This document shows positions 378 through 18,011 of a stretch of DNA of 49,877 nt, in pieces. The DNA is taken from IMG/VR virus record IMGVR_UViG_3300024344_000024, positions 1 through 49,877 of that record; one strand, written 5' to 3'. The translations under genes were made by a program, and so were the position numbers. Numbering within the stretch: the first letter of the stretch is position 1; every line of letters starts with the position of its first letter. The notes below the pieces were generated by a model, which saw only the letters and a list, made by a program, of their open reading frames with translations, did no database searches and had not been told where the DNA came from. The stretch comes from a virus.

Positions 378-1112
378 ATGAAATTAAATAAAAATGATAT
401 AGCAATAAAAAATAATACTACTAAATATATTAATAATATTATTGATGATGTAGAAAAACCATATATTTATAGAAATAAAAAATATAATAGTTATCCATTT
501 TCTATAATTAAAAAAAGCACGAATAAAAAATTAGGTAAAAAAGTTTTAAAAGGAAATAAAAAAGACTTTAAAATGTATACATTAACATTAATAGAACGTT
601 CTACTTGTACTGATGAATGTGAGCATTATTTAACTTGCTATGGGAATAATATGATGTATGGAATACGTTTTAATCCATATAATAAAAACTTTTTAATACG
701 TTTAGAAAATGATATAAAAACAATAGCAAATGAACCTAAAAACAAAAAAGGTTTTTTATTGCGTTTGCACGTGTTAGGAGATTTCTATAGTGTTGATTAT
801 GTTTTATTTTGGAAACGTATGTTACAATTATATCCTAATTTACATATATATGGATATACTAGAAACCATAATAATAGTAAGTATCTAGATAAAAGAAATA
901 TTGCAAATGAAATAATAAAATTAAATACTTTATTTAGTACAAGATTTTATATTAGATTTAGTAATAAATTAGATATAGAAGAGTCTGCCAATTCAATAGA
1001 ATTAGGAAAAAAAGGTATAATCTGCCTTGCTCAAGTAGATGAAAAGAAAACTTGTGCTACTTGTACATTATGTTGGACTAGTAAAAAACCAATTAACTTT
1101 ATTACTCATTAA
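378..1112 (+). CDS. Gp88-family (Gene 88) Cys-rich protein
   Basis: 244 aa. It matches the phage Gene 88 protein family by its conserved core. There is an N-terminal cysteine cluster (C-x3-C-x6-CYG, about residues 74-86), a central RLHVLGDFYS motif (about 131-140) followed by W and a YGYTR segment, and a C-terminal CLAQ...KTCATCTLCW cluster (about 213-229). The family is widespread in phages but its activity is unknown. The paired Cys clusters suggest metal or Fe-S binding, which is inference. It has its own promoter (319-347), an AAGGA ribosome site, and a strong terminator at 1134-1170, so it is a single-gene transcript. Codon use is as AT-rich as the neighbour at 33-293. Confidence 0.75.
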   Translation: MKLNKNDIAIKNNTTKYINNIIDDVEKPYIYRNKKYNSYPFSIIKKSTNKKLGKKVLKGNKKDFKMYTLTLIERSTCTDECEHYLTCYGNNMMYGIRFNPYNKNFLIRLENDIKTIANEPKNKKGFLLRLHVLGDFYSVDYVLFWKRMLQLYPNLHIYGYTRNHNNSKYLDKRNIANEIIKLNTLFSTRFYIRFSNKLDIEESANSIELGKKGIICLAQVDEKKTCATCTLCWTSKKPINFITH

Positions 1113-1289: not shown

Positions 1290-1312
1290 TATTATAGGAA
1301 AAACTTATAATA
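1290..1312 (+). repeat. GGAAAAACT hairpin repeat, member 1
   Basis: Perfect 7-bp stem TATTATA (1290-1296)/TATAATA (1306-1312) closing the 9-base loop GGAAAAACT. A sigma70-like promoter begins 8 bases downstream. Related elements: 1557-1594, 1682-1706, 2438-2452 and 2743-2777. Confidence 0.75.
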
Positions 1313-1320
1313 GATATAGG

Positions 1321-1348
1321 TTGTAATTATAATATATGTTGCTATAAT
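1321..1348 (+). promoter_or_regulatory. sigma70-like promoter P1
   Basis: -35 TTGTAA (1321-1326), 16-base spacer, -10 TATAAT (1343-1348). It lies 8 bases after hairpin member 1. No coding gene follows before the terminator at 1484-1517, so its product would be a short noncoding RNA. Confidence 0.55.
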
Positions 1349-1354
1349 GTATAT

Positions 1355-1517
1355 TAATAATATATAAATAAAAACACTTAATGAGAATATTTATTTTATT
1401 ATTTTAATAAAACATAAAACATCTATTGAAGACATTTAAATTATATATTATTATTTTTTCATTTTATAGTTAAACTCCTGATTGAGAGTGTCAAAAATAA
1501 TGGCACTCTCTTTTTTT
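1355..1517 (+). ncRNA. candidate phage small RNA (~160 nt)
   Basis: Inferred transcript from P1 (expected start about 1355) to the rho-independent terminator ending at 1517. The longest ATG frame inside is eight codons, with no ribosome site. Nothing is known about its sequence family. Alternatively the terminator stops leftover transcription from upstream and the promoter is fortuitous in AT-rich DNA. Confidence 0.35.
1484..1517 (+). terminator. strong rho-independent terminator in a noncoding region
   Basis: Stem GAGAGTGTC (1484-1492)/GGCACTCTC (1502-1510), nine pairs including one G-U, 9-base loop, then seven T (1511-1517). No gene ends nearby on the + strand, which is why a noncoding transcript is proposed. 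Confidence 0.85.
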
Positions 1518-1556
1518 ATGTGACCTTTATGCAACAGGTGTGATATATTTATCACT

Positions 1557-1594
1557 ATAGAAAAAACTAATAAGCATTATAAGAAAAACTTATA
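1557..1594 (+). repeat. GAAAAACT repeat, member 2 (compound)
   Basis: Bases 1557-1581 match 1682-1706 at 24 of 25 positions. They run directly into the hairpin TATAAG (1578-1583)-AAAAA-CTTATA (1589-1594), so two forms of the element are fused here. A short tandem TAGCCATA repeat follows at 1596-1614. No clear -35 box follows this copy. Confidence 0.65.
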
Positions 1595-1681
1595 TAGCCA
1601 TATGGTAGCCATAGAGTACATATAAATATAAAATAGATAGTAAGATATATAAAAAAATAAACTGAAGCATTTAAACAGGTC

Positions 1682-1706
1682 ATAGGAAAAACTAATAAGC
1701 ATTATA
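1682..1706 (+). repeat. GGAAAAACT repeat, member 3
   Basis: 24 of 25 bases match 1557-1581. This copy keeps the GGAAAAACT loop sequence but lacks a self-complementary stem. A consensus TTGACA -35 box begins 3 bases later (1709). Confidence 0.65.
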
Positions 1707-1708
1707 GA

Positions 1709-1735
1709 TTGACACTCTATAGTGTGACATAAATA
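1709..1735 (+). promoter_or_regulatory. promoter-like element with palindromic spacer
   Basis: Consensus -35 TTGACA (1709-1714), then a weak -10 (TAAATA, 1730-1735) at 15 bases. The spacer carries an imperfect palindrome, TGACACT...AGTGTGACA, which could be an operator. It may work with the next element (1766) to drive the gene at 1834. Confidence 0.4.
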
Positions 1736-1765
1736 CAACATAAAAAAATTATTTATATTTTACTA

Positions 1766-1796
1766 TTGACAATAAAAAAATAATCTATAATATATA
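1766..1796 (+). promoter_or_regulatory. promoter-like element upstream of the gene at 1834
   Basis: TTGACA (1766-1771) is followed by several overlapping -10 candidates in an AT run: TATAAT (1786-1791, 14-base spacer), TAATAT (1788, 16) and TATATA (1791, 19). The exact -10 cannot be chosen from sequence. Confidence 0.45.
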
Positions 1797-1833
1797 TATT
1801 AAGTTTTTATTAATTATTAAATGGAGTTTATAT

Positions 1834-2127
1834 ATGTCACATATTATAAGAATAAGAAAAACAAAATATAAAGCTAATCCTATTATAACAATAGGAGATA
1901 AAAAATATATTGAAGTATCAGAAACAAAAGAAAAACAATTAAGAATAGACATAAATAATTTAGTTGTTTATCCTAATACGAAAGTTGATTTAGTAGACAA
2001 TGCTATAATAGACTTACAAGGTACAGAGATTAGAGCAGACCATACTAATTTACAGATAAATCAACATAGAAAAAGTAAAACTATTAAGCCAAAAGAAACG
2101 CATATAAGTTTATTAAATAGAGATTAA
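1834..2127 (+). CDS. hypothetical 97-aa basic protein
   Basis: No family recognised. The protein is Lys/Arg- and Ile/Thr-rich with a beta-rich look (alternating hydrophobics through residues 15-60) and a basic C-terminus. It has no Cys, signal or membrane segment. The start is supported by TGGAG upstream and by promoter candidates at 1709 and 1766. A hairpin at 2135-2166 follows. A small early regulator or nucleic-acid binder would fit the charge, but this is a guess. Confidence 0.6.
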   Translation: MSHIIRIRKTKYKANPIITIGDKKYIEVSETKEKQLRIDINNLVVYPNTKVDLVDNAIIDLQGTEIRADHTNLQINQHRKSKTIKPKETHISLLNRD

Positions 2128-2134
2128 AACTAAT

Positions 2135-2166
2135 TGGTGCTATTGAATTAATTTTTAATAGCACCA
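2135..2166 (+). terminator. intergenic hairpin, weak terminator candidate
   Basis: Perfect 10-bp stem TGGTGCTATT (2135-2144)/AATAGCACCA (2157-2166) with a 12-base loop. There is no T run after it, so it may process or protect RNA rather than terminate. Confidence 0.5.
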
Positions 2167-2189
2167 TTCAACAAAAGGAGAATAGAACT

Positions 2190-2438
2190 ATGACTAAACT
2201 AGGATTTATTGTTTTTACTATGGGAGTAATGTTTTTTTTATCAGCTATGATGATAGATACTTTTGATAACTTACTGCTATACTTTGACCATTTAATAAAA
2301 GCATTAACAGATAAAGAATATTTTTTAAGTAATATTGAAGGAACATTCAGAGTTATGCTATGGTTTTTTATGATGTGGATAGGTTTCTTAATATCTGTAG
2401 CAGGTTTATTAATGATGAGATTAATTAGTTGGAAGTAA
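2190..2438 (+). CDS. small two-helix membrane protein (82 aa)
   Basis: There are two hydrophobic segments: residues about 3-25 and 54-78, the latter very Met/Phe-rich. A polar stretch of about 28 residues lies between them. No family recognised. AAAGGAG lies 10 bases before the ATG. It sits among early genes with separate promoters, so an early effect on the host envelope is possible. It is far from the holin and endolysin, which makes a lysis role less likely. Confidence 0.6.
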   Translation: MTKLGFIVFTMGVMFFLSAMMIDTFDNLLLYFDHLIKALTDKEYFLSNIEGTFRVMLWFFMMWIGFLISVAGLLMMRLISWK

Positions 2439-2452
2439 TAGGAAAATCCTAT
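2438..2452 (+). repeat. GGAAAA hairpin repeat, member 4
   Basis: Perfect 6-bp stem ATAGGA (2438-2443)/TCCTAT (2447-2452) with loop AAA. It overlaps the last base of the upstream stop codon and lies 12 bases before a -35 box. It is a divergent member of the family. Confidence 0.6.
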
Positions 2453-2464
2453 AGCAGATATAGA

Positions 2465-2493
2465 TTGAAATTATAATAGGTGTGTAGTATATA
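2465..2493 (+). promoter_or_regulatory. sigma70-like promoter P3
   Basis: -35 TTGAAA (2465-2470), 17-base spacer, -10 TATATA (2488-2493). It drives the gene at 2527. The GATATAG(G/A)TTG(T/A)AATTATAATA context is shared with P1 at 1313-1334. Confidence 0.55.
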
Positions 2494-2526
2494 TTGTTAT
2501 ATTAAATATAACAAAGGAGAATTAAA

Positions 2527-2739
2527 ATGAATTGGGAATGGGATAAAGAAACACAAAAACAATTTGAAGAAATGCAAGAGAAGTGTAGAGAATTTTCTCA
2601 AGTAGTAGAAAAGTTTAGAGATGATGTCACTAGAAATAGAGATGATATGCAGACTGAAGATAGTGCAGTAAGTAAGTTTGAGCATCAAGTAGATATGATG
2701 GCAGAAAACTTTAGAAGAATGAAACATAATTGTTTCTAA
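2527..2739 (+). CDS. hypothetical 70-aa acidic coiled-coil protein
   Basis: Highly charged, helical throughout, with heptad-like spacing and only one Cys in the interior and one near the C-terminus. No family recognised. It has its own promoter (2465-2493), an AAAGGAG ribosome site, and the 13-bp hairpin at 2743-2777 right after its stop, so it is a single-gene transcript. Confidence 0.6.
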   Translation: MNWEWDKETQKQFEEMQEKCREFSQVVEKFRDDVTRNRDDMQTEDSAVSKFEHQVDMMAENFRRMKHNCF

Positions 2740-2742
2740 AGA

Positions 2743-2777
2743 TATAAGTGCTATAGGAAAAACTTATAGCACTTATA
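2743..2777 (+). repeat. GGAAAAACT hairpin repeat, member 5 (13-bp perfect stem)
   Basis: TATAAGTGCTATA (2743-2755) pairs fully with TATAGCACTTATA (2765-2777) around the loop GGAAAAACT (2756-2764). It is the longest stem of the family. It lies 3 bases after one gene's stop and 2 bases before the next -35 box, so it could end one transcript and mark the next promoter. Confidence 0.75.
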
Positions 2778-2779
2778 GG

Positions 2780-2808
2780 TAGACAAAAATAAAATAGTAT
2801 GTTATATA
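2780..2808 (+). promoter_or_regulatory. sigma70-like promoter P4
   Basis: -35 TAGACA (2780-2785), 17-base spacer, -10 TATATA (2803-2808). It would start the long small-gene operon that begins at 2844. Confidence 0.5.
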
Positions 2809-5786: not shown

Positions 5787-6021
5787 ATATAAATATACAT
5801 ATAAATTTAGTGAGCAGACAGTAGACACTAGATACTACAAGGTAGAATCTAATACGAAACTTACCAAGAGTGAGATGCAAGATTTAGCTTGGTCAGTAGA
5901 GCAGACAGAAGGAGAAACCTTTAAATGTAATGAAGGTAAAGCTACCTTTGAAGGTACTGAAATTGGAGATGATGCACAGTATAAAATGGAAGAAGGAGAA
6001 GAGGATTTAGCAGATGATTAA
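5779..6021 (+). CDS. hypothetical 80-aa acidic protein, paralogue of the previous gene
   Basis: Three in-frame ATGs (5773, 5776, 5779); the third lies 7 bases from GGAG and gives MSEYKYTYKF, parallel to MSKYTYEYEV in the previous gene. Strand-rich N-terminus, a KLTKSEMQDLAW helix, acidic tail. No family recognised. Confidence 0.65.
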   Translation: MSEYKYTYKFSEQTVDTRYYKVESNTKLTKSEMQDLAWSVEQTEGETFKCNEGKATFEGTEIGDDAQYKMEEGEEDLADD

Positions 6022-6337
6022 ATATATTATATACACACAACACTCTTGTAACTTTTGTAACAAAGCAAAAGATTTATTACGAGAAGCAGGCGAACATTTT
6101 GAAGAACGATTATTAGATACACCTGCAAAGCTAAAAAGATTTAAAGATGCAGGACACACAACTGTACCACAAATCTTTCTACATATAGGTGGGTTTAATG
6201 AACTAGAAGAATTTATGTTTCCAGAAGATATAGAGTTTGACCCAGATATAAAACTTGTAGAGGAAACAAAACCTACTGCAAAGGTATTACCTTTTAAGAT
6301 AGGTGCTATCTCTGGAGATATAGAGAAAGATAAATGA
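6014..6337 (+). CDS. glutaredoxin
   Basis: 107 aa with a thioredoxin fold. The redox motif C12-N-F-C15 follows the first strand; the cis-Pro motif is TVPQIF (about residues 50-55); then a Gly-Gly and a helix for glutathione binding (GGFNELEEF). Family members pass electrons from glutathione to disulfides, classically to ribonucleotide reductase. A class II reductase is encoded at 15154, so supplying electrons for dNTP synthesis is plausible. The C-terminal 30 residues extend past the core. Start overlaps the previous gene by 8 bases with GGAG upstream. Confidence 0.9.
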   Translation: MIKYIIYTQHSCNFCNKAKDLLREAGEHFEERLLDTPAKLKRFKDAGHTTVPQIFLHIGGFNELEEFMFPEDIEFDPDIKLVEETKPTAKVLPFKIGAISGDIEKDK

Positions 6338-14268: not shown

Positions 14269-14490
14269 ATGGCAATAAAAACACATATATTAGAAGCAGT
14301 TATGTCTCACTATACAGCAGAAAGAGATAAAGCTTTAGCAAATATTAAGATACATCTTAACAATCCTGTAGGTGTAGGTGAACATCCTAAGATTGTAGAA
14401 GATGTTATTGAATTAGTACATAAAGCATCTGAAGCAAAAGATGCAATAGAAATGTTGACGCATATAGTAAATGACGAAAAAGACCATTGA
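14269..14490 (+). CDS. conserved marine-phage 73-aa protein
   Basis: Helical. The run from KTHILEAVMSHY to NNPVGVGEHP resembles a small protein I recall from many marine phage genomes near replication genes; function unknown. AAAGGAAAA ribosome site; overlaps the next gene by 20 bases. Confidence 0.7.
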   Translation: MAIKTHILEAVMSHYTAERDKALANIKIHLNNPVGVGEHPKIVEDVIELVHKASEAKDAIEMLTHIVNDEKDH

Positions 14491-14776
14491 CATTTTTTTA
14501 GATGTAGAGTATAATAAAAAAGAATCAGCAGAACGAGGTTTGTTTTTATCTGTTATTTTACAAGCATTATTAGATGCAACTAATAATAAAAGTAAAGTAC
14601 ATAAAGATAGAGCCATAGCATGGTTCTTTTGTAGTGTTGGTGTTACGTGTGATAACTTTGAGCAAATATGTGAGCATGCAGGATTAAGTCCTACATACAC
14701 AAGAAGTTTTGCATACAAAGTTATTCACTCACCAGACTTAAAATATGTTAGACAAAGAATAAAAAAGATACTATAA
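14471..14776 (+). CDS. conserved 101-aa protein, HTH-like
   Basis: Helical domain with FFCSVGVTCDNFEQICEHAG then a 'LSPTYTRSFAYKVI' helix, which looks like a helix-turn-helix recognition region. The segment RAIAWFFCSVGVTC is familiar from marine phages near DUF3310 and RNR genes (memory only). Possible DNA-binding regulator; not proven. Confidence 0.65.
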   Translation: MTKKTIDIFLDVEYNKKESAERGLFLSVILQALLDATNNKSKVHKDRAIAWFFCSVGVTCDNFEQICEHAGLSPTYTRSFAYKVIHSPDLKYVRQRIKKIL

Positions 14777-15164: not shown

Positions 15165-17076
15165 CTATTTACCAACAGAATATCAGACGTTTATCCATGC
15201 GTCTAGATATGCACGTTGGTTACCTGATGAAGGTAGAAGAGAGACATGGATAGAAACAGTATCTAGGTTTAGTAATTTTATGCAAGGTCATTTAGATAAA
15301 AATTTAGGTGTAGTATTAGATAGTGAAGTATGGAGAAGAATAGAAGATAGTATTATAGGGTTATCTGTTATGCCATCTATGAGAGCATTAATGACAGCAG
15401 GTCCTGCATTAGAAAGAGAAAACATAGCAGGATATAATTGTTCTTATATACCTATTGATAATCCAAAAGCATTTGATGAAGTATTATATATACTTATGAA
15501 TGGTACAGGTGTAGGTTTTTCTGTTGAAAGACAGTACATAGATAAGTTACCTACTATACCAGATAGAGAGTTTGAAAAGACAGATGATGTTGTTTCTGTT
15601 AATGATTCTAAAGAAGGTTGGGCAAGAGCATTTAAGGATTTAATATCTTATCTTTATACAAATAGAATACCAAAGATAGATGTAACTAAAGTTAGACCTG
15701 CAGGTGCTAGATTAAAAACATTTGGTGGTCGAGCAAGTGGTCCTCAACCTTTAGTTAATCTATTTGATTTTACAGTTGAAAAGTTTAAAGGTGCTAAAGG
15801 TAGAAAGTTATCTTCTATGGAAGCTCACGATATAGTTTGTAAGACAGGTGAGGTTGTAGTGGTAGGTGGTGTGCGTAGGTCAGCTCTTATATCTCTGTCT
15901 AACTTATCAGACCAGAGATTAAGAGTTGCCAAGTCTGGTGCATGGTGGGAGACTAATCCAGAGAGAGCATTAGCTAATAACTCTGTAGCTTACACAGAGA
16001 AACCAGATGCAGGTATCTTTATGAAAGAATGGTTAGCATTATATGAAAGTAAATCTGGTGAACGTGGTATCTTTAATAGAAAGTCTGCTCAAGAAAAAGC
16101 TAGAGAGAATGGTAGACGTAATGGTGATTGGGACTTTGGTACTAATCCTTGTAGTGAAATTATATTAAGACCTAATCAGTTTTGTAATCTTACAGAAGTA
16201 GTAGTAAGACCATTGGATACAGAGGAGTCATTACATAATAAGATAGAAGTAGCTACAATACTAGGTACAATACAAGCTACACTTACAGACTTTGGTTACT
16301 TGCGTAAAAGATGGCAAACAAATACAGAAGAAGAAAGATTACTTGGTGTATCTCTTACAGGAATTATGGATAATAGTCTACTATCTAGAATGAGAACAGC
16401 ATTACCAGATGTGTTAAATAAGATGAGATACAAAGCTGTATTAACAAATGAAGAATGGTCAAAGAAACTAGGTATACCACAATCAACAGCTATTACATGT
16501 GTCAAACCTTCTGGCACAGTTAGTCAATTAGTTGACTCTGCTAGTGGTATTCATGCTAGACATAATCCATATTATATTAGAACAGTTAGAGGAGATAAGA
16601 AAGACCCATTAACACAGTTTATGGCAGACCAAAGCATACCTTGTGAAGATGATGTTATGCAACCTAATAACTCTGTCTTTTCTTTTCCTATGAAAGCAGA
16701 CTCTAGTGCTATCTTTCGATATACTATGACTGCTATTGAACAGTTAGAGATATGGAAGTGTTATGCACAACATTGGTGTGAACATAAACCATCAGTAACT
16801 ATATCTGTTAAAGAACACGAATGGATTAATGTAGGTAACTGGTGTTGGGATAACTTTGATACACTATCTGGTATATCTTTTTTACCCTTTTCTGACCATA
16901 CATATCAGCAAGCACCTTATCAAGATATAGATGAAGTACAATACAATGAATTACAATCAAAGATGCCTAAAGATATTAACTGGAATAAATTACAAGAGTA
17001 TGAAACAGAAGATAATACAAGAGGTTCACAGGAGTTAGCATGCAAAAGTGGGTCGTGTGAATTGGTGGATATATAA
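15154..17076 (+). CDS. class II (adenosylcobalamin-dependent) ribonucleotide reductase
   Basis: 640 aa, monomeric RTPR type, reducing ribonucleotides to deoxyribonucleotides for phage DNA. Redox Cys C96 (YNCSYIP) pairs with C344; the radical-site run is N331-P-C333-S-E335 (NPCSEI), with C344 in FCNL. The C-terminal relay pair is C630 and C635 (CKSGSCELVDI). GTGVGF (117-122) lies in the substrate region. It needs cobalamin from the host. It is shorter than the L. leichmannii enzyme (about 740 aa), fitting a phage form without part of the regulatory region. Followed with 1-base overlap by a DUF59 protein. Confidence 0.9.
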   Translation: MGNNYLPTEYQTFIHASRYARWLPDEGRRETWIETVSRFSNFMQGHLDKNLGVVLDSEVWRRIEDSIIGLSVMPSMRALMTAGPALERENIAGYNCSYIPIDNPKAFDEVLYILMNGTGVGFSVERQYIDKLPTIPDREFEKTDDVVSVNDSKEGWARAFKDLISYLYTNRIPKIDVTKVRPAGARLKTFGGRASGPQPLVNLFDFTVEKFKGAKGRKLSSMEAHDIVCKTGEVVVVGGVRRSALISLSNLSDQRLRVAKSGAWWETNPERALANNSVAYTEKPDAGIFMKEWLALYESKSGERGIFNRKSAQEKARENGRRNGDWDFGTNPCSEIILRPNQFCNLTEVVVRPLDTEESLHNKIEVATILGTIQATLTDFGYLRKRWQTNTEEERLLGVSLTGIMDNSLLSRMRTALPDVLNKMRYKAVLTNEEWSKKLGIPQSTAITCVKPSGTVSQLVDSASGIHARHNPYYIRTVRGDKKDPLTQFMADQSIPCEDDVMQPNNSVFSFPMKADSSAIFRYTMTAIEQLEIWKCYAQHWCEHKPSVTISVKEHEWINVGNWCWDNFDTLSGISFLPFSDHTYQQAPYQDIDEVQYNELQSKMPKDINWNKLQEYETEDNTRGSQELACKSGSCELVDI

Positions 17077-17387
17077 TGACTAATAAAAATTTAAAAGAAA
17101 ATATTATAGATGTACTACAAAAAGTATATGACCCTGAAATACCTATTTCTATATATGATTTAGGTTTAATATATAATATAGATATAAAAGAAAATAAAGA
17201 TGTAAATATTCTTATGACACTAACAACACCACATTGTCCAGTAGCACAGGAATTACCAAAACAAATAGAAGATGCAGTAGCAACATTAGAAGAAGTTAAG
17301 AAAGTTAAAGTTGGTATTACTTGGGACCCACCTTGGACACAAGATATGATTTCAGAAAGTGGTAAACTAGAATTAGGATTAATATAA
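17076..17387 (+). CDS. MIP18/DUF59 (SufT/PaaD-like) Fe-S assembly protein
   Basis: 103 aa, full-length domain. Motifs: VYDPEIPISIYDLGLIY (about 17-33), the Cys-bearing MTLTTPHCPVAQELP (about 48-62), and WDPPWTQDMISE near the end. In bacteria such proteins help mature Fe-S proteins. Here it may support a host or phage Fe-S enzyme during infection; the Cas4-like exonuclease or the Gp88 protein are possible clients, but this is inference. It is the last gene but one of the RNR operon. Confidence 0.85.
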   Translation: MTNKNLKENIIDVLQKVYDPEIPISIYDLGLIYNIDIKENKDVNILMTLTTPHCPVAQELPKQIEDAVATLEEVKKVKVGITWDPPWTQDMISESGKLELGLI

Positions 17388-17579: not shown

Positions 17580-17603
17580 AACTTGCTTAATAAGGAGATA
17601 AAT

Positions 17604-18011
17604 ATGGTTAATTTTGAAGTAGATACATTCTCAAGACAAGCTATTGGCTTTGATAGATTGTTTGATGTAATGAATAACATAAGAGGGACAGATACAAACT
17701 ATCCACCTTATGATATTATAAAAGAAGATGAAGAAACTTTTATTATAGAGTTTGCTTTATCAGGATTTAAGAAAGATGATTTAAATATTGTAGTTAAAGA
17801 AAATCATTTAACAATAAAAGGTGATTATGTAAGAGGAGATGATATTGAATACTTACATAAGGGTATAGCAAAGAGGTCTTTTACTAGGGACTTTGTTCTA
17901 CACGATACGTTACACGTTGAAGACGTTACATTCAGCGAGGGTATATTAAGATTAACTCTTAAACAAATGATACCTGAAGAACAAAAACCTAAAAAGATTA
18001 AGATTAATTAA
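17604..18011 (+). CDS. Hsp20/alpha-crystallin small heat shock protein
   Basis: 135 aa, IbpA-like. The N-terminal GFDRLFD element is followed by an alpha-crystallin domain (about 35-125) with YDIIKEDEETFIIEFALSGF, IAKRSFTRDFVLHD and the closing FSEGILRLTL. Holds unfolded proteins in the cytoplasm; phage copies are known from cyanophages and pelagiphages. The ATG has AAGGAGAT at 6 bases. It has its own promoter and a strong terminator, so it is a single-gene transcript. Confidence 0.9.
   Translation: MVNFEVDTFSRQAIGFDRLFDVMNNIRGTDTNYPPYDIIKEDEETFIIEFALSGFKKDDLNIVVKENHLTIKGDYVRGDDIEYLHKGIAKRSFTRDFVLHDTLHVEDVTFSEGILRLTLKQMIPEEQKPKKIKIN

Follow-up and report, generated by a model that had tools for sequence, protein, structure and literature searches.

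A conserved paired-dyad element over sigma70-type promoters in pelagiphage-like genomes, most likely a phage operator

What is the short sequence that recurs beside promoter-like boxes among the early genes of an uncultured phage, and what would read it? Pelagiphages are among the most abundant marine viruses. The DNA analysed here, a 49,877-base IMG/VR record hereafter referred to as the window, has a G+C content of 30.6% (24% across the first 4.5 kb). By DNA polymerase its nearest cultured phages are the Pelagibacter phages HTVC115P, HTVC104P and HTVC103P (46-47% identity). These have the same two-arm layout as the window, in which the replication genes (primase/helicase, DNA polymerase and reductase) run rightward and the structural genes leftward. 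The large terminase subunit (TerL) is absent from the window; a near-identical contig (G019; L159 1-4243) has an additional 4.2 kb on its left, in which TerL lies on the opposite strand. Because G019 continues to the left of position 1, the end of the window is a contig end. Phage-borne FeS_assembly_P, Hsp20 and glutaredoxin genes are also present (17076-17387, 17583-18011 and 6014-6337, respectively).

Ungapped alignment of the window copies yielded a 45-bp element consisting of two 17-bp dyads in tandem, their centres separated by 22 bp. The first dyad (O1) reads TATAGG-W5-CYTATA and is centred near -55, with half-site centres near -60.5 and -49.5. The second (O2) reads TATAGR-N5-NYWATA and is centred near -33, with half-site centres near -38.5 and -27.5. 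Neighbouring half-site centres are 11 bp apart throughout, and the distance between the O1 and O2 centres corresponds to two helical turns (22 bp). The third half-site, at -41 to -36, abuts the -35 hexamer, which sits within the centre (N5) of O2 at a constant 28 bp after the O1 start; a -10-like box follows 16-17 bp further on. All five sites of the preliminary description (1290, 1557, 1682, 2438 and 2743) were found at their positions. Four copies, starting at 1293, 1681, 2437 and 2752, follow TATAGG-W5-CYTATA-N5-TATAGR, some with one or two deviations, and a -35-like hexamer comes immediately after. These hexamers (TTGTAA at 1321, TTGACA at 1709, TTGAAA at 2465 and TAGACA at 2780) had been noted before, and they occupy the same place in each element.

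All elements lie on the + strand. E1, directly downstream of a GP88-family gene (378-1112, + strand; Pfam PF17338, 1.3e-10), comprises O1 (TATAGGAAAAACTTATA, 1293-1309; recovered by PWM and pattern scans) and O2 (TATAGGTTGTAATTATA, 1315-1331; identified by the fourth half-site test), with the -35 hexamer TTGTAA (1321-1326) in the O2 centre and, at a spacer of 16, a -10 box TATAAT (1343-1348) that is conserved in relatives. E4 is built likewise from O1 (AATAGGAAAATCCTATA, 2437-2453) and O2 (TATAGATTGAAATTATA, 2459-2475), with TTGAAA at 2465-2470 and a -10-like TATATA at 2488-2493. The fourth half-site is thus present in two window copies (TATAGGTTGTAATTATA and TATAGATTGAAATTATA), where the -35 hexamer forms the centre of a second 17-bp dyad; it is missing in about half of all copies, including the other two window promoters. 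In E3, O1 (CATAGGAAAAACTAATA, 1681-1697) is followed by the third half-site TATAGA and TTGACA (1709-1714; together 1703-1714), and the second arm of O2 is out of register. In E5, O1 (TATAGGAAAAACTTATA, 2752-2768) lies within a longer inverted repeat (2743-2757/2763-2777) and is followed by the third half-site TATAGG with TAGACA (2780-2785; together 2774-2785) and a -10-like TATATA (2803-2808). E2, the 1557 site, is a tandem pair with no -35 inside: an O1-like dyad (TATAGAAAAAACTAATA, 1556-1572) and, exactly 22 bp beyond it, a perfect dyad (TATAAGAAAAACTTATA, 1578-1594), with an A-tract in both centres. This explains why a -35 hexamer follows only four of the five sites. In tandem dyads without a -35 (window 1556/1578; G014 5082), the spacing stays at 22 bp and the centre is again an A-tract. 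Around E2 and E3 lies a second family of conserved, operator-like sequences (1527-1553 and 1722-1740; GTGTGAYATAAATACAACA(C) and GTGATATATTTATCAC); its member at 1722-1740 (+ strand) is an imperfect dyad (GTGTGACATAAATACAACA) of another operator class that overlaps the E3 -10 region.

How far the repeat exceeds chance depends on which part of it is counted. The core word that the preliminary description took to be shared, GGAAAAACT, is exact at three sites (1297, 1685 and 2756), whereas 1557 reads GAAAAAACT and 2438 reads GGAAAATCC; three exact occurrences in the window against 0.77 expected, reached by 3 of 100 shuffles, make the word itself only mildly unusual. By contrast, the longer pattern without gaps, TATAGGWWWWWCCTATANNNNNTATAGR, with up to three mismatches has six window matches against 0.06 expected, a number reached by none of 100 shuffles. 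These six matches represent four real elements, one reverse reading of one of these elements and one stray. In a PWM scan of the window, the four copies scored 47.7-51 bits and a degenerate copy at 1554 scored 22 bits, followed by a stray at 12.3 bits; together with the pattern scans, this bears out the earlier remark that no matching element lies elsewhere in the window.

We then consider the copies in related phages. An exact IUPAC scan of IMG/VR returned 32 stretches, and 62 were returned when any A/T centre was allowed, many with two to four copies; the pooled set holds 99 distinct copies from IMG/VR contigs (effective number 48). Since the first three half-sites were built into the search patterns, how often they occur in the fetched contigs is a biased figure; this bias does not affect the four window copies or the fourth half-site. 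The near-invariance of the arms over the 99 copies is thus partly imposed by the search pattern, and ascertainment accounts in part for the third half-site lying at +22, window copies being unaffected. The fourth half-site, part of no search pattern, occurs exactly 11 bp after the third in 44% of the 99 copies, compared with 0-14% at 44 other offsets. At spacers 16 and 17, 24-26% of copies have a good -10 box, compared with 1-15% at spacers 8-15 and 18-26 (in the first set, 20 of 49 copies have one at spacer 16). The promoter overlap seen in the window, with the -35 in the O2 centre, is accompanied in this set by a -10 peak at spacers 16-17. Conservation drops at the element edges.

The element is found in three groups: the window's own uncultured group, relatives of the HTVC023P-type pelagiphages, and a third group. 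The 27 contigs of the first scan set mostly have terminase, primase or polymerase genes in common with the window's group; here the copies are located in the region of the GP88-type gene and small early genes, reading toward the next early gene. The second scan set adds the HTVC023P-type relatives, with one copy upstream of a terminase-carrying operon (TerL of L172 is 75% identical to that of HTVC023P). In the third group (L177, L181 and L183), one to three copies precede small genes that lead to the terminase. TerL identity between at least two of these pelagiphage-like lineages is only about 40%, which suggests a shared or transferred regulatory system. A match in L174, with a TATAT centre, is probably due to chance in an unrelated phage. 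The full element is absent from the whole genomes of six related cultured phages (HTVC103P, 104P, 115P, 023P, 027P and 023Pt_psg01), a direct-repeat search in the HTVC103P-type isolates gave nothing comparable, and blastn of an HTVC023P-type element against phages returned only short chance matches. Other repeats were seen in two of the isolates. HTVC027P has two different dyads (TAGGATARTCCTAT; L211 18668-18682 and 19218-19232) over promoters just upstream of its terminase gene, and in HTVC023P the small terminase gene is preceded by a cluster of four CTAGGAAAA repeats (L210 11688-11771).

The preliminary description had interpreted the sites as hairpins with a conserved loop on covarying stems, and offered a combined terminator/promoter or an N4-type promoter among their possible functions. 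The perfect 7- and 13-bp stems are indeed present, and are longer when G-U pairs are counted. Instead of the four sites said to fold, however, only three of the five do (RNA minimum free energies of -5.4, 0, -0.8, -6.4 and -18.6 kcal/mol for the sites in the 1290s and at 1557, 1682, 2438 and 2743, respectively), and only 2743, which folds strongly, lies far from its shuffles (z -9.1). The GGAAAAACT 'loop' is just one O1 centre variant, A5, the others being A4T, T5 and ATATT. Among the copies tallied, the centre is inverted or replaced (A5 46, T5 21, A4T 14, ATATT 13 and a few others) on unvarying arms. The copies show no excess covariation: in a set of 42 distinct ones, the proportion of paired cells is 65.2% (65.8% in shuffles) and the covariation score 0.114 (0.121 in shuffles), and an independent count agrees. 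Outside the 6-bp half-sites 42.5% of the helix cells are paired, an A-A mismatch falls within the arm in 11 of the 42 sequences, and in the G017 orthologue the 13-bp stem of the 2743 site is interrupted. An RNA or DNA hairpin with covariation was rejected on the basis of shuffles and slid controls. Nor does a T-run follow any element: a GC-rich stem with a direct T-run occurs only at 1484-1517, the sole intrinsic terminator found and separate from the elements. A comparison of the window with Rfam gave no match. N4 virion RNA polymerase promoters are likewise inverted repeats near left-end early genes; here, unlike in N4, there is no conserved hairpin, and sigma70-type -35 and -10 boxes are present. 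No match to an RNA polymerase was found in the large proteins scanned on this incomplete contig, and a search with PF00940 (T7-type polymerase) was as silent as its own control. We regard a structured element of any of these kinds (RNA hairpin, extruded N4-like DNA hairpin promoter or terminator/promoter fusion) as exceedingly improbable.

Two further explanations would dispense with a phage regulator. The alpha subunit of host RNA polymerase might recognise the element as an AT-rich UP element, given the element's place at about -59 to -38 and the A-tract inside it. This is very improbable: conservation is highest at GG and C (1.8-2.8 bits, against a 24-31% GC background), so that the span is not A/T-only, and the A-tract is replaceable by T5 or ATATT; dyad symmetry and the existence of promoterless tandem copies also argue against it. 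If phages had captured a site for a host (SAR11) transcription factor, this would account for the presence of the element in at least two pelagiphage-like lineages with about 40% TerL identity, which presumably share hosts, and yet 117 Pelagibacterales genomes hold no exact full element and only one match with one mismatch. The dyad occurs in none of 58 Pelagibacterales genomes (control, 8). Among 385 Alphaproteobacteria only 3 gave a match, fewer than the 7 of the control, and we regard a host site as very improbable. A scan of genome contigs gave five matches. Four of these are single matches in unrelated bacteria, and the fifth, a contig assigned to a Sneathiella MAG, matches phage contig G013 in length and site. 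A phage contig of the window's group apparently resides in a GenBank Sneathiella sp. MAG (L019/L152; PAKP01000072.1, 33,035 bp) and is probably misbinned. Absence of the element from the host genomes sampled, one match with one mismatch apart, and from the six related isolates points to a phage regulator.

Such a regulator could be an activator that, sitting on O1 and on the half-site next to the -35, would contact sigma or alpha of host RNA polymerase and turn the promoters on. In all copies used, O1 and the third half-site keep an invariant distance from the -35, which an activator would also fit; the -35 hexamer begins right where the third half-site (-41 to -36) stops; and weak -35 boxes (such as TAGATT, TTGCAT and TTTACA) are frequent. 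The fourth half-site, however, would put a second dimer atop the -35, and several copies have a consensus TTGACA or TATAAT that should need no help. We consider an activator possible, although unlikely. A repressor is the reading that we favour, with slightly better than even confidence: the element would be a sigma70-type operator-promoter, with paired operators for cooperating dimers of a predicted phage repressor that switches the promoters down jointly. The regulator is predicted to be a repressor because O2 covers the -35. The element is most likely the operator of a phage-specific regulon with a predicted dimeric, cooperative regulator, and the paired dyads in fixed -35/-10 register support the earlier suggestion of a phage operator or regulator site beside a sigma70-like promoter.

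Under the repressor reading, each element would be a promoter for host RNA polymerase over which two tandem 17-bp operators are built. With half-sites 11 bp apart and O1 and O2 centres two turns apart, two dimers of one phage-encoded protein would lie side by side on the same DNA face and bind cooperatively. Protein at O2 would keep RNA polymerase off the -35, and a set of phage promoters would be turned down jointly. The predicted targets are the promoters of small early genes in the window's group and, in HTVC023P-type relatives, the promoter of the operon carrying terminase and structural genes.

No regulator was found among the candidates assessed (1834-2127, 14471-14776 and GP88), and the early ORFs scanned gave no match to HTH repressor families. 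The early ORF at 1834-2127, previously put forward as a binder, is found in only 7 element-bearing contigs, all from the window's subgroup, and this narrow distribution makes it unlikely to be the general regulator. ORF 14471-14776 belongs to the sole small uncharacterised family shared by the three element-bearing groups. Its family is predicted to be a five-helix protein (pLDDT 80), has no significant PDB sequence or fold match and has a weak match also in isolates without the element, and is only a lead. GP88-type genes flank the elements in most related contigs; GP88 was rejected as the regulator since non-alignable variants occupy its place, with a ParB-like gene there in G013. GP88-like proteins beside elements are of four mutually non-alignable types of 244, 230, 216 and 313 aa (window 378-1112; L160, L154, L161 and others).

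Downstream of E1, the + strand from the -10 box (1343-1348) to the intrinsic terminator (GAGAGTGTC...GGCACTCTC-T7, 1484-1517) has no ORF of at least 60 codons. The E1 promoter, the 3' part of the transcript and the terminator are nonetheless conserved across related contigs, and 1355-1517 (+ strand; start inferred from the -10 box) is thus a candidate operator-controlled noncoding RNA. Promoter and terminator are kept, with no long ORF, in at least eight distinct related contigs. It may be, as a speculation that we hold doubtful, that one phage regulator and its paired operator are common to distant pelagiphage-like lineages, serving early genes in one and a terminase/structural operon in another, that co-infecting phages could cross-repress, and that one target promoter makes a conserved noncoding RNA.

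The element is real, conserved and without description in the literature searched, where four of its main dyad variants do not occur. Such a promoter motif is not mentioned in the pelagiphage papers checked, including a 2025 transcriptome study of HTVC027P whose account is limited to early genes of unknown function. A precisely defined conserved operator would provide a handle on pelagiphage gene control: transcription starts and co-regulated genes can be predicted from it, and it could serve as bait for the missing regulator.

Its kind, a phage operator-promoter, is already known; the paired anatomy is unusually clear, and its reach spans distant pelagiphage-like lineages. The lambda operators OR1 and OR2 are similar tandem dyads of about 17 bp, roughly two helical turns apart, that overlap the -35 of strong phage promoters in an arrangement suited to two cooperating dimers. 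They differ in sequence and spacing (24 bp, compared with 22 bp here) and form one switch, whereas the sites here are dispersed over many promoters; moreover, no repressor or lysogeny genes were found and no CI homologue was seen. Mycobacteriophage L5 stoperators share the many dispersed copies of one site per phage genome, but are short, asymmetric and also located inside operons, unlike the -35 copies described here, which would be promoter operators of paired dyads. The MotA-box middle promoters of T4 also have a phage-specific sequence at a fixed -35 place in a promoter set. By contrast, the MotA box is a single 9-bp site that replaces the -35, whereas the present element extends over about 45 bp, its two 17-bp dyads enclosing a recognisable -35.
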